From: Devosia sp.
GTDB lineage: Bacteria; Pseudomonadota; Alphaproteobacteria; Rhizobiales; Devosiaceae
DNA length: 35,538 bases
NCBI GenBank assembly: GCA_015657675.1
Contig: JACDQI010000116.1
Span: forward strand, 1-35,538
Direction: 5' to 3'
The notes beneath the pieces are model-generated. The model was not told the origin of the DNA. It ran no database searches and saw nothing but the letters and a program-made list of their open reading frames with translations. Shown here one piece after another: positions 20,760-34,388 of the stretch. Every line of letters begins with the position of its first letter. The stretch's first letter is position 1. The translations under genes and the position numbers were made by a program.

Positions 20760-23516
20760 TTGGACAGCAAGTTAAGGGTCGTTCTTACCCTGCTCATCTG
20801 GAGCCTGGTCATGGCGGCCGGGTTTTTCGGCTCGTTCCGTGCCATTGACGATGCGCTGCGCGATCTGCGCTTTGCCTCCAACCTGAGACCGCCTACCGGC
20901 AGTATCGTCTTCGTCGACATCGACGCGCGCAGTCTCAGTACCGTGGGCGTTTGGCCATGGCCGCGCAGCGTGCACGCAGAGCTGGTCGACCGGCTGATGG
21001 ACGCCGGGGCCGACGATGTCGCGTTCGACGTCGATTTCAGCTCAGCTTCGAACGATGTTGAAGACCAGGCGTTCGAGGATGCACTGTCCCGCGCCGGCGG
21101 CTTCGTGCAGTTGGCCGCCTTGCGCCAGCTCGGCGATACGCATGGCGAGGAACGCTATAACCTTCCTTTGCAGCGCTTTGCCCAATATGCCGACCCGGTC
21201 ACCGTCAACGTACCGATCGGCACCGGCGGCCTGGTGCGGACCTATCCGTTCGGCATGCAACTGGGCGATGAGACCTATCCGTCGCTGGGCGCGGCGCTCA
21301 CCAGCGTGCGTGGTCCACCGGACCGTGCCTTTGTCATCGACTATTCAATCGATGTCGCAAAAATCGACCGCATCCCCGTATCCGACCTCCTGGATGGTTC
21401 GGTCGATCCAGCCCGCATTGCCGGCAAGGCCGTGGTGATCGGCGCTTCGGCGCTGGAACTGCGTGACACGTTCGTCGTGCCGCTGCACGGCGTCATTCCC
21501 GGCGGCATGGTGCAGATCCTTGCCGCCGAGACCCTGCGGCAGGGGCGCCTGCTCGAATCCACCGGTTGGGGTCCGGTGGCGCTGATGGTCGCGCTGATGG
21601 GCTTTTACGGCTTTGCGTTGGGCGGTCGAGTGTCGTTGGGCTGGACGATCGCCGGGGGTCTTGCGCTGTCGGTGTTGGCCGAAGTGGCGGCGCTGCTCAT
21701 GCAGGTGCATTTCGGCATGCTGCTCGATACTGCCGCCATCCACGTGGCGCAGGCAGCCTTCATCGTCAACGCGCTGCTGATCGAAGTTCGCTTGCGACAG
21801 CGCGCACATGCCGAGGCTTCGCACCAGCGCGATGCGACGCAGGGCATTCTCGACCGCGTCATCGCTGACAACTTTGACGGCGTGGTCGTGGTGGATGCGG
21901 ATGGCTGCATCGTCGCGGCCAGCCGCCTCGCCGAAGAGATCCTCGGAGCAGGGCTGGTCGGCGCCCAAGCCAAGGACGTGCTGCCCCCCAAGATCGATGT
22001 GGCACTTCGGACGCTGCTGGCAGCCCCGACGGTGGCCGCGCATCCCTTGCCTGCCGAACTCCGTCTGCCCAATGAGCAGGGCGACGAGCGGGTGCTCGAA
22101 TACGCCATCACGCGCTCCGAAGTGATTGGCGCCGGGGGCCGACAGCCGGCCAAGCGCGTTGCCTGTCTCACCTTCCGCGACATTTCCGAACGGCGACGGT
22201 CCGAGGAGCGGCTGCGCTTCCTTGCCAGCCACGATCCGCTGACCGGGGCGTTGAGCCGGTTGGAAATGGTCGAAGTTGTCCATGCTCATTGTTCCACAGA
22301 GCGCGGCCGCGCTGATGGGGTGACGATGATCGTCGTCGATCTCTCCCGCTTCAAGACCGTCAATGAGACGCTGGGCCACAGCTATGGCGACATGGTGCTC
22401 AAGCAGGTCGCGAGCCGGTTGCATGCGTGCAGCGCCGATGCGATCGCGCGCGTCGGTGGCGACAGTTTCGCGCTCTTTCTCCGCCGGCGCATGTCCACCG
22501 AGGAACTGCTCGCCTATTGCAACGAGATCATCCAGCGGGTCGCCGCCCCTTACTCGCTGAGTGGCGGCCATCAGGCGCTGATCGCGGCAAGCGCCGGGGC
22601 GACCCATTCCGGGCTCTCGGGGTATGATCCGGATGTGCTGCTCAGCCATGCCGATATGGCGCTCTCGGTCGGCAAGGATGCGCCCGGCGGCGGCGTCGCG
22701 CTGTTTTCCCAGGAGATGGACGACCGTCTCAAGGAAAAGCAGGACATGGACGTCGCCTTGCGCGAGGCGATCGAGAACCGCGAGCTTTCGCTTACCTTCC
22801 AGCCGCAGGTCTCGCTGGTTGACGAGCGGTTGGTTGGGGTCGAGGCGCTGGTGCGCTGGACTCATCCGGAACTTGGCATCGTCTCTCCTGCCCGTTTCAT
22901 TCCGGTGGCCGAGGAGACGGGCCTGATCATCGAGATCGGCCGTTGGGTGCTGATCGAAGCCTGCCGCCAGGTCGTCCACTGGCCCGATGAAGTGCGGTTG
23001 GCGGTCAACGTCTCGCCGATCCAGTTCGAGATGAGCGACGTGGTGCGGGAAGTGCGGGAAGCGCTGGAGATCTCCGGCATGCCGCCCAGCCGGCTGGACA
23101 TCGAGATTACCGAAGGCATGTTCGTGGCCAAGTCGCAGGCCATCATCGACACGCTCAAGCGTCTGCGCGACATGGGCGTCGGCGTGGCGCTCGACGATTT
23201 CGGCACCGGCTACTCGTCGCTGAGCTACCTGGGGCGCCTGCCGCTCGACAAGATCAAGATCGACCAGAGCTTTGTCAAAAGCCTGCCGAGCGATGCCGAG
23301 GCGGGCGCGATTATCCGCGCCGTGATGACGCTCTCGGAGACGCTCGACAAGGTCGTAGTGGCCGAAGGCATCGAAACAGCCGACCAGGCCTGGATGCTCA
23401 AGATGATGGGCTGCCAGATCGGGCAGGGGTATTATTTCGGCCGCCCCCGCACCGGCGCCGAAATGCTGGCATGGTTTGCCGATCACGGCGCTGAAACGCG
23501 CCCGATGAGCGCCTGA
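20760..23516 (+). CDS. CHASE2-PAS-GGDEF-EAL c-di-GMP protein
   Basis: 918-aa membrane signalling protein. Order: TM near residues 5-25; extracytoplasmic CHASE2 sensor (about 26-265, IVFVDIDARSLSTVGVWPWPRS, VVIGASA); TM bundle (about 268-340); PAS (about 368-470, DNFDGVVVVDADG); GGDEF-like domain (about 485-635) with the motif changed to GGDSF (566-570); EAL domain from 650 with E695-A-L, NVSP, EITEG, D812-D-FGTGYSS, KIDQSF and EGIE. EAL looks catalytically competent; the GGDEF has lost the key Glu, so the protein is probably a phosphodiesterase with a regulatory GTP-binding domain. The start is TTG 20760; ATG 20811, with a good GGAG, would delete the first TM. Confidence 0.93.
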   Translation: MDSKLRVVLTLLIWSLVMAAGFFGSFRAIDDALRDLRFASNLRPPTGSIVFVDIDARSLSTVGVWPWPRSVHAELVDRLMDAGADDVAFDVDFSSASNDVEDQAFEDALSRAGGFVQLAALRQLGDTHGEERYNLPLQRFAQYADPVTVNVPIGTGGLVRTYPFGMQLGDETYPSLGAALTSVRGPPDRAFVIDYSIDVAKIDRIPVSDLLDGSVDPARIAGKAVVIGASALELRDTFVVPLHGVIPGGMVQILAAETLRQGRLLESTGWGPVALMVALMGFYGFALGGRVSLGWTIAGGLALSVLAEVAALLMQVHFGMLLDTAAIHVAQAAFIVNALLIEVRLRQRAHAEASHQRDATQGILDRVIADNFDGVVVVDADGCIVAASRLAEEILGAGLVGAQAKDVLPPKIDVALRTLLAAPTVAAHPLPAELRLPNEQGDERVLEYAITRSEVIGAGGRQPAKRVACLTFRDISERRRSEERLRFLASHDPLTGALSRLEMVEVVHAHCSTERGRADGVTMIVVDLSRFKTVNETLGHSYGDMVLKQVASRLHACSADAIARVGGDSFALFLRRRMSTEELLAYCNEIIQRVAAPYSLSGGHQALIAASAGATHSGLSGYDPDVLLSHADMALSVGKDAPGGGVALFSQEMDDRLKEKQDMDVALREAIENRELSLTFQPQVSLVDERLVGVEALVRWTHPELGIVSPARFIPVAEETGLIIEIGRWVLIEACRQVVHWPDEVRLAVNVSPIQFEMSDVVREVREALEISGMPPSRLDIEITEGMFVAKSQAIIDTLKRLRDMGVGVALDDFGTGYSSLSYLGRLPLDKIKIDQSFVKSLPSDAEAGAIIRAVMTLSETLDKVVVAEGIETADQAWMLKMMGCQIGQGYYFGRPRTGAEMLAWFADHGAETRPMSA

Positions 23517-26261: not shown

Positions 26262-27440
26262 ATGTCGCCACCGTCCGAAGGCAAGGGTTTTTCGCCCGAG
26301 CTGCGCGCCTCGATCTTTCACTTCATGGTGTTTGCCTCGACCGGCGTGTCGTCGGTCTATTTTGCCATTTGGCTCAGCAATCGCGGCATCTCGCCGGACG
26401 AGACCGGCATCATCACCGCGGTCCCAGTGCTGGTGATGCTGGCGATCAACGTGCTGGTCGGCCGCCTTGCCGACAAGGCCAGCGACTGGCGCAACGTCAT
26501 CATTATCCTGTCGCTGATCGGCGGCGCTATCCCGATCGGCATGTACTTCGTCTCCGGCTTCTGGGGCATCCTGCTGGTCTGGACGCTCTGCGTCGTACCG
26601 GCGGCGGCGCTGGTGCCGGTGATCGACGCGGCAACCCTGCGGATGACGCAGCGGCGCGGCACCAATTTTGGCGTCGTCCGCGCCTGGGGCACTGTCGGCT
26701 ACACCGTCACCACGGCGCTGGCCGGACCGGTAATCGGCATTTTCGGCGAGTCCGCATTCCTGCCGCTGTTCCTCGCCTTCTCGCTGCTGCGGGCGCTGAT
26801 CTCGCTGCAGCTGCCGCGCTTCCGCGCGCCGGTGCAGACCACGCCCGAACCGGCGCGACCGACCGCCCGGCGACTGCGCGACGCGCTCAAACCCTGGTTC
26901 GTGTTGCCGATCTTCGGGTTGGGTATCCTCTATTCGACCCACGGCGTGCTGGCCTCGTTCGCCGCGCTCCTCTGGAAGCAGCAGGGCATTCCCGAGGGCA
27001 TCATCGGCCCGCTGATCGCCGTGGGCGCCGCCGCTGAAGCTCTGATGATGTTCGTCTGGCAGCGCCTCAACCTCAAAGTCTCGGCGCGCCATCTCATCAT
27101 CTTTGCCGCCCTGGTGGCGGTGGTGCGCTGGTCTCTGATGGCCTTTTCGCCGCCGATCTGGCTGCTGGTCATCCTGCAGCTGCTCCACTCCGTCACTTTC
27201 GCAGTCGGCTATCTGGGCGGCATCTACTTCATCGCGAACTGGACCGACGAGGACATCGCTGCTGAAGCGCAGGGCTTCTCCTATGTGGTGCAGCAGGGGA
27301 TGACTGTCGTGGCCCTCCTCGGCTTCGGCTGGTTTGCCGGCCAGTTCGGTGCCGGTGCCTGGCTGGCACTGGGCGCCTTTACCTTCGTTGGCGCCGTGCT
27401 GGTGTGGATCTCGCTCCGGCTGCGGCCGGCGCATAACTGA
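26262..27440 (+). CDS. MFS permease, PPP/HcaT-like
   Basis: 392-aa 12-helix major facilitator of the MFS_1_like group (3-phenylpropionate permease HcaT-like). N-terminal half: FMVFASTGVSSVYFAIWLSNRGISPDETGIITAVPVLV, then VGRLADKASDWRN, the loop 2-3 motif; GTNFGVVRAWGTVGY is typical of this subgroup. The C-terminal half starts near residue 210 (LKPWFVLPIFGLGILYSTHG). Start ATG 26262 with GGAG 7 nt before. The gap to the phosphatase is 70 bp. Substrate unknown. Confidence 0.9.
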   Translation: MSPPSEGKGFSPELRASIFHFMVFASTGVSSVYFAIWLSNRGISPDETGIITAVPVLVMLAINVLVGRLADKASDWRNVIIILSLIGGAIPIGMYFVSGFWGILLVWTLCVVPAAALVPVIDAATLRMTQRRGTNFGVVRAWGTVGYTVTTALAGPVIGIFGESAFLPLFLAFSLLRALISLQLPRFRAPVQTTPEPARPTARRLRDALKPWFVLPIFGLGILYSTHGVLASFAALLWKQQGIPEGIIGPLIAVGAAAEALMMFVWQRLNLKVSARHLIIFAALVAVVRWSLMAFSPPIWLLVILQLLHSVTFAVGYLGGIYFIANWTDEDIAAEAQGFSYVVQQGMTVVALLGFGWFAGQFGAGAWLALGAFTFVGAVLVWISLRLRPAHN

Positions 27441-27462
27441 CGGTGGGGGGCGACGGAGGCAC

Positions 27463-27864
27463 ATGCTCGACATCGCTGCCGACCTTCCCGCTCACTTCTG
27501 GGACGTCGTCTATGACGGTACCAGCACGCCGCTGAACACTCCTGACCTCGCGGGCCGGGCCAATTGCCAGGTCTTCGCCTATGCCGTGTTGAAGCACTTC
27601 GGACGTGTTGTCCCGCCTCTGCGGTCGAGCGAGCTCTGGACCGATCCGACCGGCATTTCCGCAGTGGCGCCGCTTGAGTCGTTGGACCTTTTGCTGTTCG
27701 CTCCGACTACCGATCCCTTCGGCGCGCATGTCGCGGTGAGCCTAGGCGAAGACCGTGCCCTGCATCTCGCCAAGCAGGTTGGGCGACCGGCGATCTGGAC
27801 GCTTGCCCAGTTCGCGGCTCTGCCTGAGTACCGCGTCCTGCTCGGCGGTCGGCGGTATCTCTGA
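27463..27864 (+). CDS. NlpC/P60-like cysteine hydrolase (putative)
   Basis: 133-aa protein with the layout of a small NlpC/P60-superfamily domain: a candidate nucleophile Cys in RANCQVFAYAVLKHFG, an acidic strand (LESLDLLLFAP), and a His in GAHVAVSLGEDRALHLAK, the HVxxxLGxxxxLH pattern of the family. It has no signal peptide. NlpC/P60 enzymes cleave peptidoglycan stems or act as amidases; the match is by motif spacing only. GGAGG precedes the ATG at 27463. The upstream frame overlaps the permease and is not used. Confidence 0.65.
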   Translation: MLDIAADLPAHFWDVVYDGTSTPLNTPDLAGRANCQVFAYAVLKHFGRVVPPLRSSELWTDPTGISAVAPLESLDLLLFAPTTDPFGAHVAVSLGEDRALHLAKQVGRPAIWTLAQFAALPEYRVLLGGRRYL

Positions 27865-28139: not shown

Positions 28140-31100
28140 TTAGCTGACGCGGCCGCTGGCGTGGGCCAGCATGGTGTAGACGCGTCCGCGATCGGACAGC
28201 AGGAACTCGCGGGCGGCGGCCGCCGGGTTGCTCGACTGGGCAGCCTGCTGCAGCAGCTGCTCGAACTCGCTCATATAGGTCGCCGAGGTGCGGGCGAATT
28301 CCGGGTCCTGCTGCAGGCGCTTGCGCACCTGATCGTAGGTGCCCTGGCCGCTGAGGGTATAGATGCGGCGCGAGAAGACGTTCTGCTCGCCATTCTGGTA
28401 GCGGGCCCAGGCTTCGGCGAGAGCCGTCTGGTCCATCGCCTTGGCGATTTCCTCGGTCAGGTTGGTCAGGTTGGGCTGGGCCGGCGCAGCGCTGGCCTGG
28501 GCCGTGGCATTGCGCAGCACGTCGCGGAGCCAACCGCCACCTTCTTCAGTCTTGGCGGCTGCCGCGGCAGCCGGCGCGGGCGCCGGTGCCGGAGTGGGGG
28601 CAGGAGCCGGAGCGGCGGGACGCGATGCCGTGACGGTTGCGGCGGCCGGTGCGGGAGCCGGACGGGGTGCAGGAGCCGCAGCGCGGGCAGGTTCGGGGGC
28701 ACGCACCGGCTCAGGAGCGCGGGGCGCGGGGGCCTCGCGGACCGGTTCGGCACGCAGTTCTTCACGGCGCGGCGTCGGCGGCGGAGCACGGCGACCATCG
28801 TTGAGGTCGTGCGTCGCCGGCTGGGCGCGGACGATGGCGTTGAGCTCGCTCAGCGCTTCGATCTGCTCGGCCACGACGCGGCGCATGGCAGCGGCGCTGG
28901 CCTTGGTTTCTTCCGGCAGTTCCATGACGCCGCGGGCCAGTTCCGAGCGGGTCGATTCGAGTTCCGAACCGACTTCGCGGGCCGTGGCACGCATGGCGTC
29001 GGCGGTCTCGTTGAAGCGCTTGGTGGCTTCCTCGAGCGCCTGCTGCATCTCGAGGATGAGCGTCGTCTGGGTCTGGCGCAGCGCGTCGGCGGCGCGGTCG
29101 CTTTCCGAGCTGGCCGCAGTGGTGAACTGGCTGAGCTGACCGGTGACCTTTTCCGAGGTCGAGGAGAGGGCGGCTTCGAGCAGGTTGGTGGTCTCGTTCA
29201 GCACACCCTGCATTTCGCTGGTGCTGGTCTCGAGTGCCGACTGGACGCGCGTCGTGGTGGCGCCAAGCACGCTCTCGAGATGATTGGTGGTCGCCGTCAG
29301 CACGGTTTCGAGCTGGCCGGTGGTGTTGGTCAGCACGGTCTCGAGCTGGCCAGTGGTCTCGTTGAGCGCCTGCTGGATCGAGCCGGAGGTGTTTTCCAGC
29401 GTCTCGGCCACCGAAGTCGTCGTGGTGGTGAGCAGCTCTTCCATGCTCTTGCGAGCGGTGAGCAGGCGGTGCTCGGTGTCGTTGACCGTGTCGGCGATCG
29501 ACTGGGCAAAGCCACGCATGCGCTCATCGATGTCGTCGGCGCGGGCGGTAAAGCTCGAGGCGAGGGCGTCCATGGCCGAGCGGCGCTCTTCGAGCATGCC
29601 GATGGTCTGGCCGCTGGCAGCGTTGAGGCCCTCAGCGGCGCGGTCGATGCTGCTGGCTTCGGCGTTGAGGTTGCCCAGCACAGAGCTGAATTCCTGCACC
29701 ATGGCAGCGATGGTCGTCTGCAGCGCACCGACATGTTCGGTGACCAGGCGGCCGGCTTCCTCGGTCGAACCGATGGCTTCGCGGACAGTGGCCGAGTAGG
29801 TCGAGGTCTGCTCGGCGACGCTGGTTTCGAGCTGGCTGAGGTTCGCGGTCGAGGCGTCCAGCACCTTCTGAAGCAGAATGTTGCTGTCGTTGAGCTTGCC
29901 CAGCGCCGAGGTCACATCGGTAAGGATGCGCGAGGTCGACTGGCTCATCAGATCCTCGGCTTCGCGGGCATTCTGCGAGAGCGCGTGGTTGAGGATGTTG
30001 CTGTGGTTCTGCAGCGCCATCTCAAGCTGGGCCGACTTGTCGGTGACCAGGGCCGAGAAAGCGTCGGTCTGTTCGGTAACGGCGCGATTGATCTCGGCCA
30101 CCTTGCCACCGATGGCATCGGCAGCGGCGACGGCCTTGATCGAGATGAGTTCGTCGATCGAGCGCGAGGCAGTTTGGATCTGCTCGAGCGCGTTGCGCAC
30201 GGCCACATCCATCCGGTCGGCCGTCTGGGTGACGTCGTCCGAGATCGAGGCGGTTGCAGCGACGATGCGCTTGGAGATGGTCTCCTCGATGCGGTCGGCG
30301 CCGGTCTCGAGATCGGTCATCGACTGCACGAGTGCCGTGTTGATCGCTGTATTGAGCGAAGCGAGGCGCTCCGCCGTAATGTCGGCGCGGGCGGTGATGG
30401 CCTCGGGCAGGGTGCCCAGGCGCTGGTCGACCATGTCGGTGATCGCCTTGCGCGCCGCGTTGACGCCGGTTTCGATGATGTCGGCAGCAGCGCGGGCGCT
30501 ATCGCCCACGGTCGCCGCAGCGCCATCGATACGGGCTGTGACGCCACCTTCGGCATCAGCCATGCGCAGGATCGCGTTGTCGATGCCGCGGCCGAGGTTC
30601 TCGGTGACTTCGCCGACCTTGCTGGCAATCAGCGTGGTGACGGTCTGAGCGCGCTCGGTCATGGTGTCGTTTACGCTGCGCAGGCTCTGGTCGATCTTGT
30701 CGCGGGCAGCATTGCCCTGCGCTTCGATGGTGCGTGCCAGTTCGGCGGTGCGGTCGCCAATGGCGGCTGCAATGCCGACCGTGTGGCTGCCGAGCGTATC
30801 GGCGAGCTGCTGCGTGCGCGTGTTCAGCGCTTCGCTGAGTTCACTCGACCGCGTGCCGACGGCCTGGGCCAGCTGCTGGGTGCGGCTGTCGAGATTGTCG
30901 CTGAGCTGGCGGGTGTACTGATCGAGCGTCGAGTCGAGTGCCACATTGCGGCTTTCGAGCGTCGAGTCGAGTTCGCGAGTGCGGCCCGACAGCAGCTGGT
31001 CGAGTTCCTGAGCCCGCGACGAGACACGGCTCTCGATCTCTTCGGCACGGCCGCTGAGCGACTGCTCGAGGGCCTGCGAGCGGCTTGCGAGGGCGCGGTC

Positions 31101-33176
31101 GATTTCCTGCGTCCGGCCGGCAAGGCTGCGGTCGATTTCCTGGCCGCGGGTCGAGAGGCTGCGATCGATCTCCTGAGCGCGGCTGGCGAGGTTGCCATCG
31201 ATCTCGCCGGAGCGGCTGGCAAGTGCCGAGTCGATTTCCTGCGAGCGCACGAGGATCGCCTGGTCGAGTTCGACCGTGCGGCTGGCCAGCGAGGTGTCGA
31301 TCTCCTGCACGCGTGTCGCGAGGGCGTCGGCCAGTTCGGTGGTGCGGGTCTGCAGCGTCTCGTTGAGCAGCTGGGTGCGGCCGTCGAGGGCGTCGGCGAT
31401 GATGTGGGTATGGCCTTCGAGCGAGTCAGAGATCTCGCGGCTGCGATTGCCGATGGTCTCGGTGATCTGCTTGACGCGCTGGCCGAGGGTCTCGGTCATC
31501 TCGCGGGTGCGCTGGGTGACGATCTCGTTGAAGTGGCCCGACTTCTCGTCGAGGGCCATTTCCAGCACGTTGGCGCGGGCGGCGAAGCTGGCGTTGGTCT
31601 TGTCGAGGGCGTTCATCAGCCGCTCGCCCTTGTCGCCGATCACTCCGTCGAGCGTCTGCAGGCGGGTGTCGATCAGGCCGGCGATCTCGTCGAGGCGCGA
31701 GTCGAACTGGCTGAGGTTCTGCGAACCGGCGCCCATCAGGGTGACGCGAGCGCGTTCAGTGGTGTCGTCGAGTGCACCGGCAAGTTCGATCATCGCCGTC
31801 TGCAGGCGCGATTCCATCGAGTTGACCTGCACCTGCACGCTCTCGTCGAGCTGGCGTGAAAGGCCGGAGAGCAGCTGCTCGGCTTCATGCGCGCGGCTCG
31901 AAATGTCCGAGGCGATGCGCGTGCCGATCATGTCGAGAGCGCCCGACACTTCATGGCCGCGGTCACGCAACTGGTCGAGCAGGGTGATGCCGCCCTGGCT
32001 GAGGAGCTTGGCGAGCGAGGAGGTACGGTTGTCGATGGCGTCCGAGAGCGTCACGGCGCGGCTGTCGAGCGCTTCGGTGAGCGAGGACATGCGGCCGTCG
32101 ATGACGTTGGAGAGCTCCATCGTGCGGTTCTCGAACGCCGTCGAAATGGTGCTGGCGCGGTCTTCGAGCGTCAGGTTGAGGCGCGAGGCGCTGTCGTCGA
32201 GGGCGACGAGCAGGTGGCTGGTGCGCTGGTCGATCAGCGACACGAAGCTTTCGGTGCGCTCGCCAAAGGCCGAGTTCAGGGAATTGCCGGCGGTTTCGAG
32301 TGCCTTGGTCAGGTTGCCGCCCGATTCGACGATGGTGCCGGCGATGCGCTGGCTGATCATGTCGAGGTCGAAGACGAGGCCGGTGTGGCTCTCGGTGATG
32401 GCTTCGCGGACGCGCTCGGTATTGGTGATCACGGCCTCGCGCTGGCTGGCGAGTTCCTGGATCAGGGCGCGCATGCGCGATTCATTGTCCGAGTAGGTGC
32501 GTTCGAGCGCGGTGACCTCGTTGTGGATCATCACTTCGAGCTCGCCGGCGCGGGAGAGGGCGCGTTCGAGGCCATCGCCCAGCGCGTTGACTTCGCGGCG
32601 CACGGCCTGGCCGACGGAGGCGACCTTTTCAGACGCAGTTGTTTCGGGTTCGGCCAGCCGAATGGCGGCCTGGGTCACGGCGGTTGCGGCGTTGCGCAGG
32701 TCCTGCGCACGGCGAATCAGCGTGGAGATGGCGAAAAAGCCCACCACCGGAATGATGGCGATGGCGACGAGGCCGATGAAGTCGTTCGAGCCGAAGAAGG
32801 CAGGGCTGCTCATCTCGGCGCCGTTGCGGATCATGGCCACCAGAATGATGGCGAGCACCCAGCCGGCGGCGACGAGGCCGGCGATCAGCGTCGGGGTCTG
32901 GCTGGTCTTGGACTGCAGCCCATAAAGGATGCGCGAGCCCTGGAAGCGGTCGTCATTGGCGACCGAACCGGCCTGGGCGGCGATCTTGTCGGCGGCGCGG
33001 TCCCGGGCAGCACGCTGGCTGGTGTCACGCTGCACCGGGCGAGGGCCCTGCGGTGCTGCGGGTTTTTCCTCAGGCTCATCGAGCCCGGCAAACACCGAGT
33101 CCTTGAGCGCGTCCTCGACAGCCGAGAATGCCAGAGTAGCTGGATCGTTTTGGGTGGTGGTCGATTTCTTCGCCAT
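28140..33176 (-). CDS. Giant two-TM hendecad coiled-coil protein, growth-pole-ring (GPR)-like
   Basis: 1678 aa. Residues 1-95: charged cytoplasmic N-terminus; two helices at about 97-116 and 133-154 with a short loop. From 160 on it is coiled coil: 20 strictly consecutive 11-residue units (307-526), a 7-residue break TNASFAA (527-533), then 26 more (534-819), most units starting with Arg (RTQEIDRALAS type); weaker 11-mers continue to about 1140 and again near 1290-1370 (TTGQLETVLT). A Pro/Ala linker (about 1460-1550) leads to a folded C-terminus (about 1550-1678, VFSRRIYTLSGQGTYDQVRKR). The layout resembles the apolipoprotein-like GPR ring protein of Agrobacterium (about 2,100 aa), which is needed for polar growth. 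Identity with GPR is inferred. The frame is open to 33284; I chose ATG 33176 (MAKKSTTT). Confidence 0.85.
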   Translation of the reverse strand: MAKKSTTTQNDPATLAFSAVEDALKDSVFAGLDEPEEKPAAPQGPRPVQRDTSQRAARDRAADKIAAQAGSVANDDRFQGSRILYGLQSKTSQTPTLIAGLVAAGWVLAIILVAMIRNGAEMSSPAFFGSNDFIGLVAIAIIPVVGFFAISTLIRRAQDLRNAATAVTQAAIRLAEPETTASEKVASVGQAVRREVNALGDGLERALSRAGELEVMIHNEVTALERTYSDNESRMRALIQELASQREAVITNTERVREAITESHTGLVFDLDMISQRIAGTIVESGGNLTKALETAGNSLNSAFGERTESFVSLIDQRTSHLLVALDDSASRLNLTLEDRASTISTAFENRTMELSNVIDGRMSSLTEALDSRAVTLSDAIDNRTSSLAKLLSQGGITLLDQLRDRGHEVSGALDMIGTRIASDISSRAHEAEQLLSGLSRQLDESVQVQVNSMESRLQTAMIELAGALDDTTERARVTLMGAGSQNLSQFDSRLDEIAGLIDTRLQTLDGVIGDKGERLMNALDKTNASFAARANVLEMALDEKSGHFNEIVTQRTREMTETLGQRVKQITETIGNRSREISDSLEGHTHIIADALDGRTQLLNETLQTRTTELADALATRVQEIDTSLASRTVELDQAILVRSQEIDSALASRSGEIDGNLASRAQEIDRSLSTRGQEIDRSLAGRTQEIDRALASRSQALEQSLSGRAEEIESRVSSRAQELDQLLSGRTRELDSTLESRNVALDSTLDQYTRQLSDNLDSRTQQLAQAVGTRSSELSEALNTRTQQLADTLGSHTVGIAAAIGDRTAELARTIEAQGNAARDKIDQSLRSVNDTMTERAQTVTTLIASKVGEVTENLGRGIDNAILRMADAEGGVTARIDGAAATVGDSARAAADIIETGVNAARKAITDMVDQRLGTLPEAITARADITAERLASLNTAINTALVQSMTDLETGADRIEETISKRIVAATASISDDVTQTADRMDVAVRNALEQIQTASRSIDELISIKAVAAADAIGGKVAEINRAVTEQTDAFSALVTDKSAQLEMALQNHSNILNHALSQNAREAEDLMSQSTSRILTDVTSALGKLNDSNILLQKVLDASTANLSQLETSVAEQTSTYSATVREAIGSTEEAGRLVTEHVGALQTTIAAMVQEFSSVLGNLNAEASSIDRAAEGLNAASGQTIGMLEERRSAMDALASSFTARADDIDERMRGFAQSIADTVNDTEHRLLTARKSMEELLTTTTTSVAETLENTSGSIQQALNETTGQLETVLTNTTGQLETVLTATTNHLESVLGATTTRVQSALETSTSEMQGVLNETTNLLEAALSSTSEKVTGQLSQFTTAASSESDRAADALRQTQTTLILEMQQALEEATKRFNETADAMRATAREVGSELESTRSELARGVMELPEETKASAAAMRRVVAEQIEALSELNAIVRAQPATHDLNDGRRAPPPTPRREELRAEPVREAPAPRAPEPVRAPEPARAAAPAPRPAPAPAAATVTASRPAAPAPAPTPAPAPAPAAAAAAKTEEGGGWLRDVLRNATAQASAAPAQPNLTNLTEEIAKAMDQTALAEAWARYQNGEQNVFSRRIYTLSGQGTYDQVRKRLQQDPEFARTSATYMSEFEQLLQQAAQSSNPAAAAREFLLSDRGRVYTMLAHASGRVS
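30720..31577 (-). repeat. 26 tandem 33-bp coding repeats (hendecads)
   Basis: 858 bp, exactly 26 x 33, encoding residues 534-819 of the giant protein. Consensus unit R-[ST]-x-E-[IL]-[DS]-x-[AS]-[LI]-x-[ST]. The most alike units lie at about 31080-31260 (RAQEIDRSLST, RGQEIDRSLAG, RTQEIDRALAS). Eleven residues make close to three helical turns, giving a nearly straight coiled coil. Confidence 0.9.
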
Positions 33177-33534
33177 ACTCTTTACAACTCTCGCATAGGC
33201 TGATGCGCCGCAATGGCATAGTGAGTTGTCATGGACCCACGCCCGTTTCCGGGTCTGTGACCATTTAGGTAAAATGCGACACAAATGCCGCCTTTCACCT
33301 TCGATAACCCACGCCGCCGCACGCTAGGTGGACCTCACATATACAAGCAATTTGAGGCAAACCGAACCGTTTATTAATTGAAGGTTAATTTCGTGGCAGC
33401 CGTAAGGCTACCTGCGGGTTCTCAGGAACTGGGGATAAGTCTCTGGACCCGCACCACTTAACACGGTGTTCACTCGGGCTCCGTTAGGTTCGGCAGGCGC
33501 CAGAAAGGCGCGAACCGTCCTGCAGGGGAAAGTT
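33177..33534. promoter_or_regulatory. Divergent promoter region with CtrA full site
   Basis: 358-bp gap between the giant coiled-coil gene and the HPt gene. It contains TTAATTGAAGGTTAA (33374-33388), a perfect TTAA-N7-TTAA CtrA site in the most A/T-rich part (TTTATTAATTG). The site is 198 bp from the coiled-coil ATG and 147 bp from the HPt GTG, so it could act on either promoter. No other gene is seen here. Confidence 0.7.
33374..33388. promoter_or_regulatory. CtrA binding site TTAA-N7-TTAA
   Basis: Exact match to the alphaproteobacterial CtrA consensus with the correct seven-base spacer (TTGAAGG). TTAA is rare in this GC-rich sequence, so a chance perfect pair exactly in the divergent promoter is unlikely. 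Confidence 0.75.

Positions 33535-34388
<854 letters not shown>

Follow-up and report, generated by a model that had tools for sequence, protein, structure and literature searches.

The window analysed here is a 35,538-nucleotide stretch of DNA from Devosia sp., and its main feature is a minus-strand gene of the RgsE/GPR type (Table 1). The plus-strand frame across the same interval contains a stop and is not open. A search with the C-terminal sequence found a single match to the RgsE/GPR-type protein in its own genome. Upstream of the gene, and divergent from it, lie genes for an Hpt-domain protein and a [2Fe-2S] ferredoxin. Just downstream is a small convergent gene (27436-27864, plus strand) that lacks a Pfam match; its product gave no blastp match (E 1e-4) in 114 loci, with short downstream flanks in some of them. 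A CHASE2-GGDEF-EAL protein, likely a c-di-GMP enzyme, is encoded 4.6 kb downstream of the RgsE/GPR-type gene (20760-23516, plus strand).

Table 1 Features of the RgsE/GPR-type gene and its divergent neighbours in the window.
Feature	Position	Strand	Details and basis
RgsE/GPR-type gene, 1678 aa	28140..33176	-	ATG at 33176; stop codon 28140-28142 included; open frame; orthology tests
First TM helix	32817..32897	-	residues ~94-120; hydropathy, AF2 helix
Second TM helix	32706..32798	-	residues ~127-157; hydropathy, AF2
Conserved juxtamembrane helical block	32307..32699	-	residues 160-290; several invariant R and E columns (alignment A2, 50 sequences)
20 hendecads	31599..32258	-	residues 307-526
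Single heptad insert TNASFAA	31578..31598	-	residues 527-533
26 hendecads	30720..31577	-	residues 534-819
Weaker 11-mer helical rod	28836..30719	-	residues 820-1447; local periods 3.61-3.67
Pro/Ala-rich linker	28542..28835	-	residues 1448-1545; read from sequence
Conserved all-helical C-terminal domain	28143..28541	-	residues 1546-1678; homologue search, AF2
Divergent Hpt-domain gene	33466..33924	+	Pfam Hpt 9.4e-9; true start probably downstream, similarity from ~33592
[2Fe-2S] ferredoxin gene	34014..34388	+	Pfam Fer2 6.7e-12; probable start ATG 34068

An earlier, sequence-only reading had described the product as a protein with two N-terminal TM helices and a Pro/Ala linker that carries a folded C-terminal domain of about 130 residues. 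The helices are borne out by hydropathy, which places the TM stretches at about residues 93-120 and 126-157, and by AF2, and the linker and terminal domain by sequence and AF2. Calculated with a 50-sequence alignment, the AF2 model shows a TM hairpin continuing into a long helix (mean pLDDT 93.5, pTM 0.47). Both ends of the protein are presumably cytoplasmic, as would agree with published PhoA fusions to RgsE; membrane anchoring of RgsE has likewise been described.

Reading the protein in steps of 11 residues reproduced the repeat organization noted earlier, namely two hendecad arrays that flank a single heptad and are followed by weaker 11-mers. Over the 46 units, a hydrophobic residue (LIVMFWY) occupies position 5 in 93% and position 9 in 100% (46/46), and arginine occupies position 1 in 33. 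The per-position variance of hydrophobic occupancy is 240, compared with a maximum of 29.7 in 20,000 shuffles, which excludes a chance origin of the pattern. The spectral peak across both arrays lies at 3.67 residues (11/3) rather than 3.5. Each 11 residues include two strong hydrophobic positions and one small-residue position; a narrow stripe of T/A, L/I and L with 3-4-4 spacing results, and this stripe would fit a hendecad coiled coil. The sole proline from residue 178 to residue 1420 is P924, and none occurs in 307-819. The predicted helix of about 1,240 residues thus contains one proline; by arithmetic that assumes one straight helix, 1,243 helical residues at 0.15 nm per residue would span ~186 nm. 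The 11-residue periodicity extends to RgsE/GPR-type relatives, as 97 of the 100 proteins examined have a higher identity at lag 11 than at lags 7, 10 and 12. The place of the heptad insert is aligned without gaps in all four Devosiaceae relatives compared (G005, G056, G093 and Devosia sp. ZB163), so that the insert in the window's protein is probably constrained within the family; in G093, gaps occur further on, past the insert. The term "hendecad" was not found in the related literature searched.

AF2 predicts an all-helical C-terminal domain, with a mean pLDDT >90 in each block of ten over the last 100 residues. Its conserved residues include W1590, G1596, Y1606, F1638 and G1675. A Pfam search with the window's domain gave no family over its cut-off, and in a search with 47 members no family matched more than four of them (best E 0.0024). 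Foldseek against the PDB gave no fold match with E <0.7, and a PDB sequence search nothing better than E 0.08. In the genome counts given here and below, "order" denotes Rhizobiales and "own family" Devosiaceae, assignments taken from the named matches. Used as a query, the last 149 residues matched 115 of 121 order genomes (own included) at one place each, and 104 of the 106 high-quality ones; no match was obtained in G026, G036, G068, G078, G113 and G114. G036, G078 and G113 (99%, 76% and 86% complete) are all three sampled genomes of one family (f36), in which neither an RgsE C-domain, by single-sequence search, nor a true MreB was found, and the elongation mode of this family is worth asking about.

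A tblastn search of a plasmid collection with the same 149 residues matched a 3.7-Mb Sinorhizobium meliloti record in a gene annotated "kinesin" (LZK74_25975, CP090106.1), the product of which has 2089 residues. As this equals the published length of RgsE, the "kinesin" was taken as RgsE. The public annotation "kinesin" is attached to CP090106.1 2044121-2050390, and the record, labelled pSymB, carries chromosomal-looking genes such as those for cytochrome bc1 and folP.

The two terminal modules of the window's protein, each aligned alone, find their counterparts at the matching places in RgsE, with 41% identity for the N-module (E 9e-50) and 39% for the C-module (E 7e-40). The rod overall is only about 25% identical, in an alignment dominated by the repeats. 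In Agrobacterium, the C-module is 38-40% identical in three records (among the best 80 of 594 confirmed stretches) and the N-module 37-38% in two records, both with Hpt and ferredoxin neighbours; one of these two is an A. tumefaciens MAG (N-module identity 38%, E 2e-47), where the frame has 2137 codons. Identity to the protein of Devosia sp. ZB163 reaches 84% in the N-module and 76% over 1610 aligned residues. In the C-domain scan of named genomes, Devosia, Maritalea, Pelagibacterium and other Rhizobiales account for most of the top rows among the best 80 of 594 confirmed stretches. The top row of these 80 is labelled as a Burkholderiales MAG, which is probably a binning error.

The protein shares with RgsE of S. 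meliloti (SMc00190) the two TM helices, the 11/3-periodic rod, the C-terminal domain and the divergent Hpt and [2Fe-2S] neighbours, but has 1678 rather than 2089 residues and a more regular rod (lag-11 identity 0.195 vs 0.144). Comparison with Agrobacterium records shows that it agrees with GPR of Agrobacterium tumefaciens in layout, in the two terminal modules and in synteny. GPR is longer (2115 aa) and is the one with ring, depletion and deletion data. The link to GPR proposed in the sequence-only reading is thus upheld by the terminal modules, the TM-rod-C-domain layout, the single match per genome and the neighbours in common. The protein is very probably orthologous to RgsE/GPR and comes from a Devosia-like bacterium that probably grows at its pole.

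The divergent Hpt and ferredoxin genes were used as the family-defining locus, a choice of our own rather than one adopted from a paper. The S. meliloti locus has the same gene order (divergent Hpt, then [2Fe-2S]). The window ferredoxin is 70% identical to its S. meliloti neighbour, and the Hpt proteins of the two loci were aligned by blastp over 25 residues only (E 5e-10). In ~1.0-1.5 kb of upstream sequence from five named genomes, both genes were found in Devosia ZB163, the A. tumefaciens MAG and A. rubi, the Hpt gene only in S. meliloti 4H41 and the ferredoxin gene only in B. pseudogrignonensis. Of the order loci, 98 have 3 kb or more of upstream sequence, and HMM searches of these detected a divergent Hpt gene in 77 and a divergent ferredoxin gene in 90, with both in 74 and neither in five; in three of these five, which belong to one family, both genes lie close by on the gene's own strand. 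Control rpoBC loci contained neither (Hpt 0/80, ferredoxin 0/80). At four loci (L080, L091, L092 and L093, from G085, G088, G094 and G074, respectively) the C-domain frame is short although no contig edge is reached; in G088, G094 and G074 a distance of 2.6-3.0 kb separates the short frame from the upstream Hpt gene, as if a long frame were interrupted, and G088 also has runs of N.

Outside the order, the best 26 of 51 N-module matches, from 15 families, provided loci with 0.4-1.4 kb of upstream sequence. A divergent upstream Hpt gene is present in 13 of these 26, from 6 of the 15 families, and a ferredoxin gene in none. On these short flanks, the Hpt link therefore appears older than the ferredoxin link. 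In the plasmid collection, searches with C-domains from outside the order matched only Sinorhizobium, Shinella and one Sphingomonas record. A hypothetical protein of Sphingomonas parapaucimobilis (WP_347091011.1, 774 aa) contains the C-terminal domain (E 3e-24) as well as two TM helices, and its divergent neighbour carries an Hpt annotation; the N-module profile does not match it. The Hpt-like neighbour in Sphingomonas (L364:3637-3930) scores 16.6 bits, under the Pfam Hpt cut-off of 24.6; it has leucine in place of the histidine and keeps the K-G of what we take to be the Hpt motif. A simple H-x-[ILMV]-K-[GS] match is also absent in 10 of 78 order Hpt frames. Some Hpt partners may thus be structural only. 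Neither "Hpt" nor "phosphotransfer" occurs in the main text of the two principal papers on RgsE and GPR (PMC7327166 and PMC8262873).

By Krol et al., Rgs proteins and MreB are reported as mutually exclusive, and RgsE homologues outside Rhizobiales as only more distant ones, in Emcibacterales and Rhodospirillales; their first search applied a size filter to candidates, which for RgsE had to fall within 50% of the reference. In the present sample, frames matching at E 2.7e-58 or better were called true MreB and those at E ~1e-17 or weaker DnaK/FtsA-type, calls that reflect our reading of E-values and frame lengths. By these calls, 15 of 121 order genomes have a true MreB (E 1.8e-113 or better), and all 15 also contain the C-domain, 13 of them in an intact frame with two TM peaks. 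The absence of MreB is therefore not diagnostic of RgsE/GPR. In G109, G090, G031 and G074 an RgsE-type gene and MreB reside on one contig (with a short C-domain frame in G074), which rules out contamination as the cause of the co-occurrence in these four. In a class-wide draw of 285 genomes outside the order, the C-domain was found in 102, of which 95 have MreB, and the N-module profile matched in 51. Both modules occur in one frame and in the right order in 43 genomes, all with MreB; the other 59 genomes with the C-domain yielded no N-module, or none in that frame. Judged by these matches, the RgsE-type family is widespread and compatible with MreB. As full-layout relatives exist in MreB-bearing bacteria, the layout alone is no proof of polar growth. 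In the window's own genome, an 85% complete MAG, neither a true MreB nor MreC was found, and these absences mean little by themselves as even the rpoB domain searched was absent. The three Devosiaceae genomes sampled, which are 99-100% complete, contain no true MreB.

The length of the rod was measured from TM2 to the C-domain, with approximate ends set at the final peak of hydropathy within residues 1-420 and at 115 residues from the C-terminus. Of 115 genes, nine with frames cut by a contig edge were left out, as were seven more without two hydropathy peaks (in G119, G085, G088, G094, G074, G045 and G042). In the remaining 99 intact order genes the rod comprises 534-2438 residues, and 1230-1564 in four of the own family. 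The rod measures 592-1157 residues (median 700) in 13 order genomes with MreB and 534-2438 (median 1522) in 85 without; G009, which has an MreB fragment, is in neither group. On an RpoBC tree of 80 of the 99 genomes (12 omitted with same-family relatives kept, and seven for missing or partial rpoB, including the MreB-bearing G018), the association of rod length with MreB, p = 7e-6 when uncorrected, vanished (p = 0.31, lambda 1; 79 genomes, 12 with MreB). A causal tie between rod lengthening and MreB loss was therefore rejected. Outside the order, five MreB-bearing genomes from two families have frames of 1691-2121 codons.

The sequence-only reading had suggested that the long uniform rod sets a fixed distance or ring geometry, and uniform hendecads with one interruption, as well as a heptad insert conserved in the family, are what a molecular ruler fixing ring diameter or distance from the pole tip might display. 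The suggestion fares poorly against the spread of rod lengths within the order and even within the family, which makes a precise family-wide ruler unlikely; each species could have its own length, and overall we regard a ruler as quite improbable. Only slightly better placed is the reading of the protein as a bacterial apolipoprotein, in which the 11-mers would be amphipathic helices that bind lipid and so coat or shape the membrane. GPR has been published as an apolipoprotein, and the whole protein of the window scores 153.8 bits with Pfam Apolipoprotein (PF01442; cut-off 90) and matches human ApoA-IV in phmmer (E 1.3e-9). However, two column shuffles of the window stretch, in which the composition of each of the 11 positions is kept and residues are swapped between units, scored 110 and 102.2 bits vs 92.1 for the real sequence, and those of a 330-residue RgsE stretch 83.4 and 72.3 vs 75.3, none of which reaches the cut-off. 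When each stretch was shuffled fully, once, the Apolipoprotein match was gone. The match is thus explained by the 11-residue pattern, as column-shuffled repeats score about as well or better. The scarcity of strongly hydrophobic positions (just two per 11) and the proline-free arrays also argue against lipid-binding helices, which leaves this reading improbable. As a pattern control, the shuffles remove the sequence argument for lipid, and contact of the rod with lipid remains compatible with them. The apolipoprotein class of GPR loses sequence support with this control, which was done on the window's protein and the RgsE stretch rather than on GPR itself.

A tail-type anti-phage protein such as ZorA is marked by a MotA/TolQ-type membrane domain and an adjacent zorB. 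The NCBIfam model ZorA_1 does match the protein (E 9.2e-10, best over residues 1196-1435), but at 37.4 bits vs a cut-off of 190. Moreover, the protein has two TM helices and no Pfam match to a MotA/TolQ-type domain, and none of eight neighbouring proteins scanned (including Hpt, Fer2, CysG and MFS) is ZorB-like; the chance that it is a ZorA is negligible, and this identity was rejected. A more serious contender, though still an unlikely one, is a general polarity landmark, similar to TipN, that has no special growth role in this organism. It would account for the same-layout relatives in MreB-bearing genomes across the class, and a similarity between GPR and TipN has been noted in print. Against it stand the three nearly complete or complete family genomes without true MreB and the published observation that rod shape and growth suffer when the orthologues are lost.

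The assignment to RgsE/GPR connects the window's protein to a body of published orthologue data. GPR, RgsE and the Brucella homologue localize to the new pole, in Agrobacterium as a 200-nm ring of six foci. Depletion abolishes rod shape and overexpression leads to branching or extra poles; the C-terminus is important, and association with RgsA, RgsS and TolQ is described. In the mechanism that we propose, the narrow T/A-L-L stripe would bring several copies side by side in a nearly straight hendecad coiled coil, rather than lay them on lipid. Anchored in the inner membrane at the new pole, bundles of these rods would form a scaffold that gathers envelope-synthesis proteins, and the C-terminal domain at the far end may dock partners or join rods. 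The strongest candidate for a regulator or accessory subunit is the Hpt protein encoded next to the gene, and this is the least certain part of the proposal.

The RgsE/GPR kind of protein is already known, as is, in print, the similarity of GPR to TipN of Caulobacter crescentus (882 aa), a new-pole marker that is called similar or analogous to GPR by published remark only. The pattern control against the apolipoprotein label, the co-occurrence of RgsE and MreB, and the Hpt linkage were not found in the literature searched, nor was a paper joining "Hpt domain", TipN, polarity and Caulobacter; subscription papers lay mostly outside these searches. A tentative wider view, which we consider possible though somewhat less probable than its negation, is that an ancient Alphaproteobacterial polarity module existed before MreB was lost, with RgsE/GPR as its rhizobial form. 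Such a module would combine a membrane-pinned hendecad scaffold with a divergently encoded Hpt-fold partner, would possibly include Caulobacter TipN, and through Hpt might link a phosphorelay (or, with the histidine lost, a structural contact) to the site of envelope growth.

The protein described here extends the known family to a Devosia relative. The published mutual exclusivity of Rgs and MreB does not extend to RgsE in the present sample of genomes, and the range of the family exceeds Rhizobiales and two other orders. The conserved Hpt neighbour offers a concrete gene with which to ask how the growth pole receives signals. If the wider view is true, a polar scaffold that already existed would have been adopted for wall growth in Rhizobiales, not invented there.
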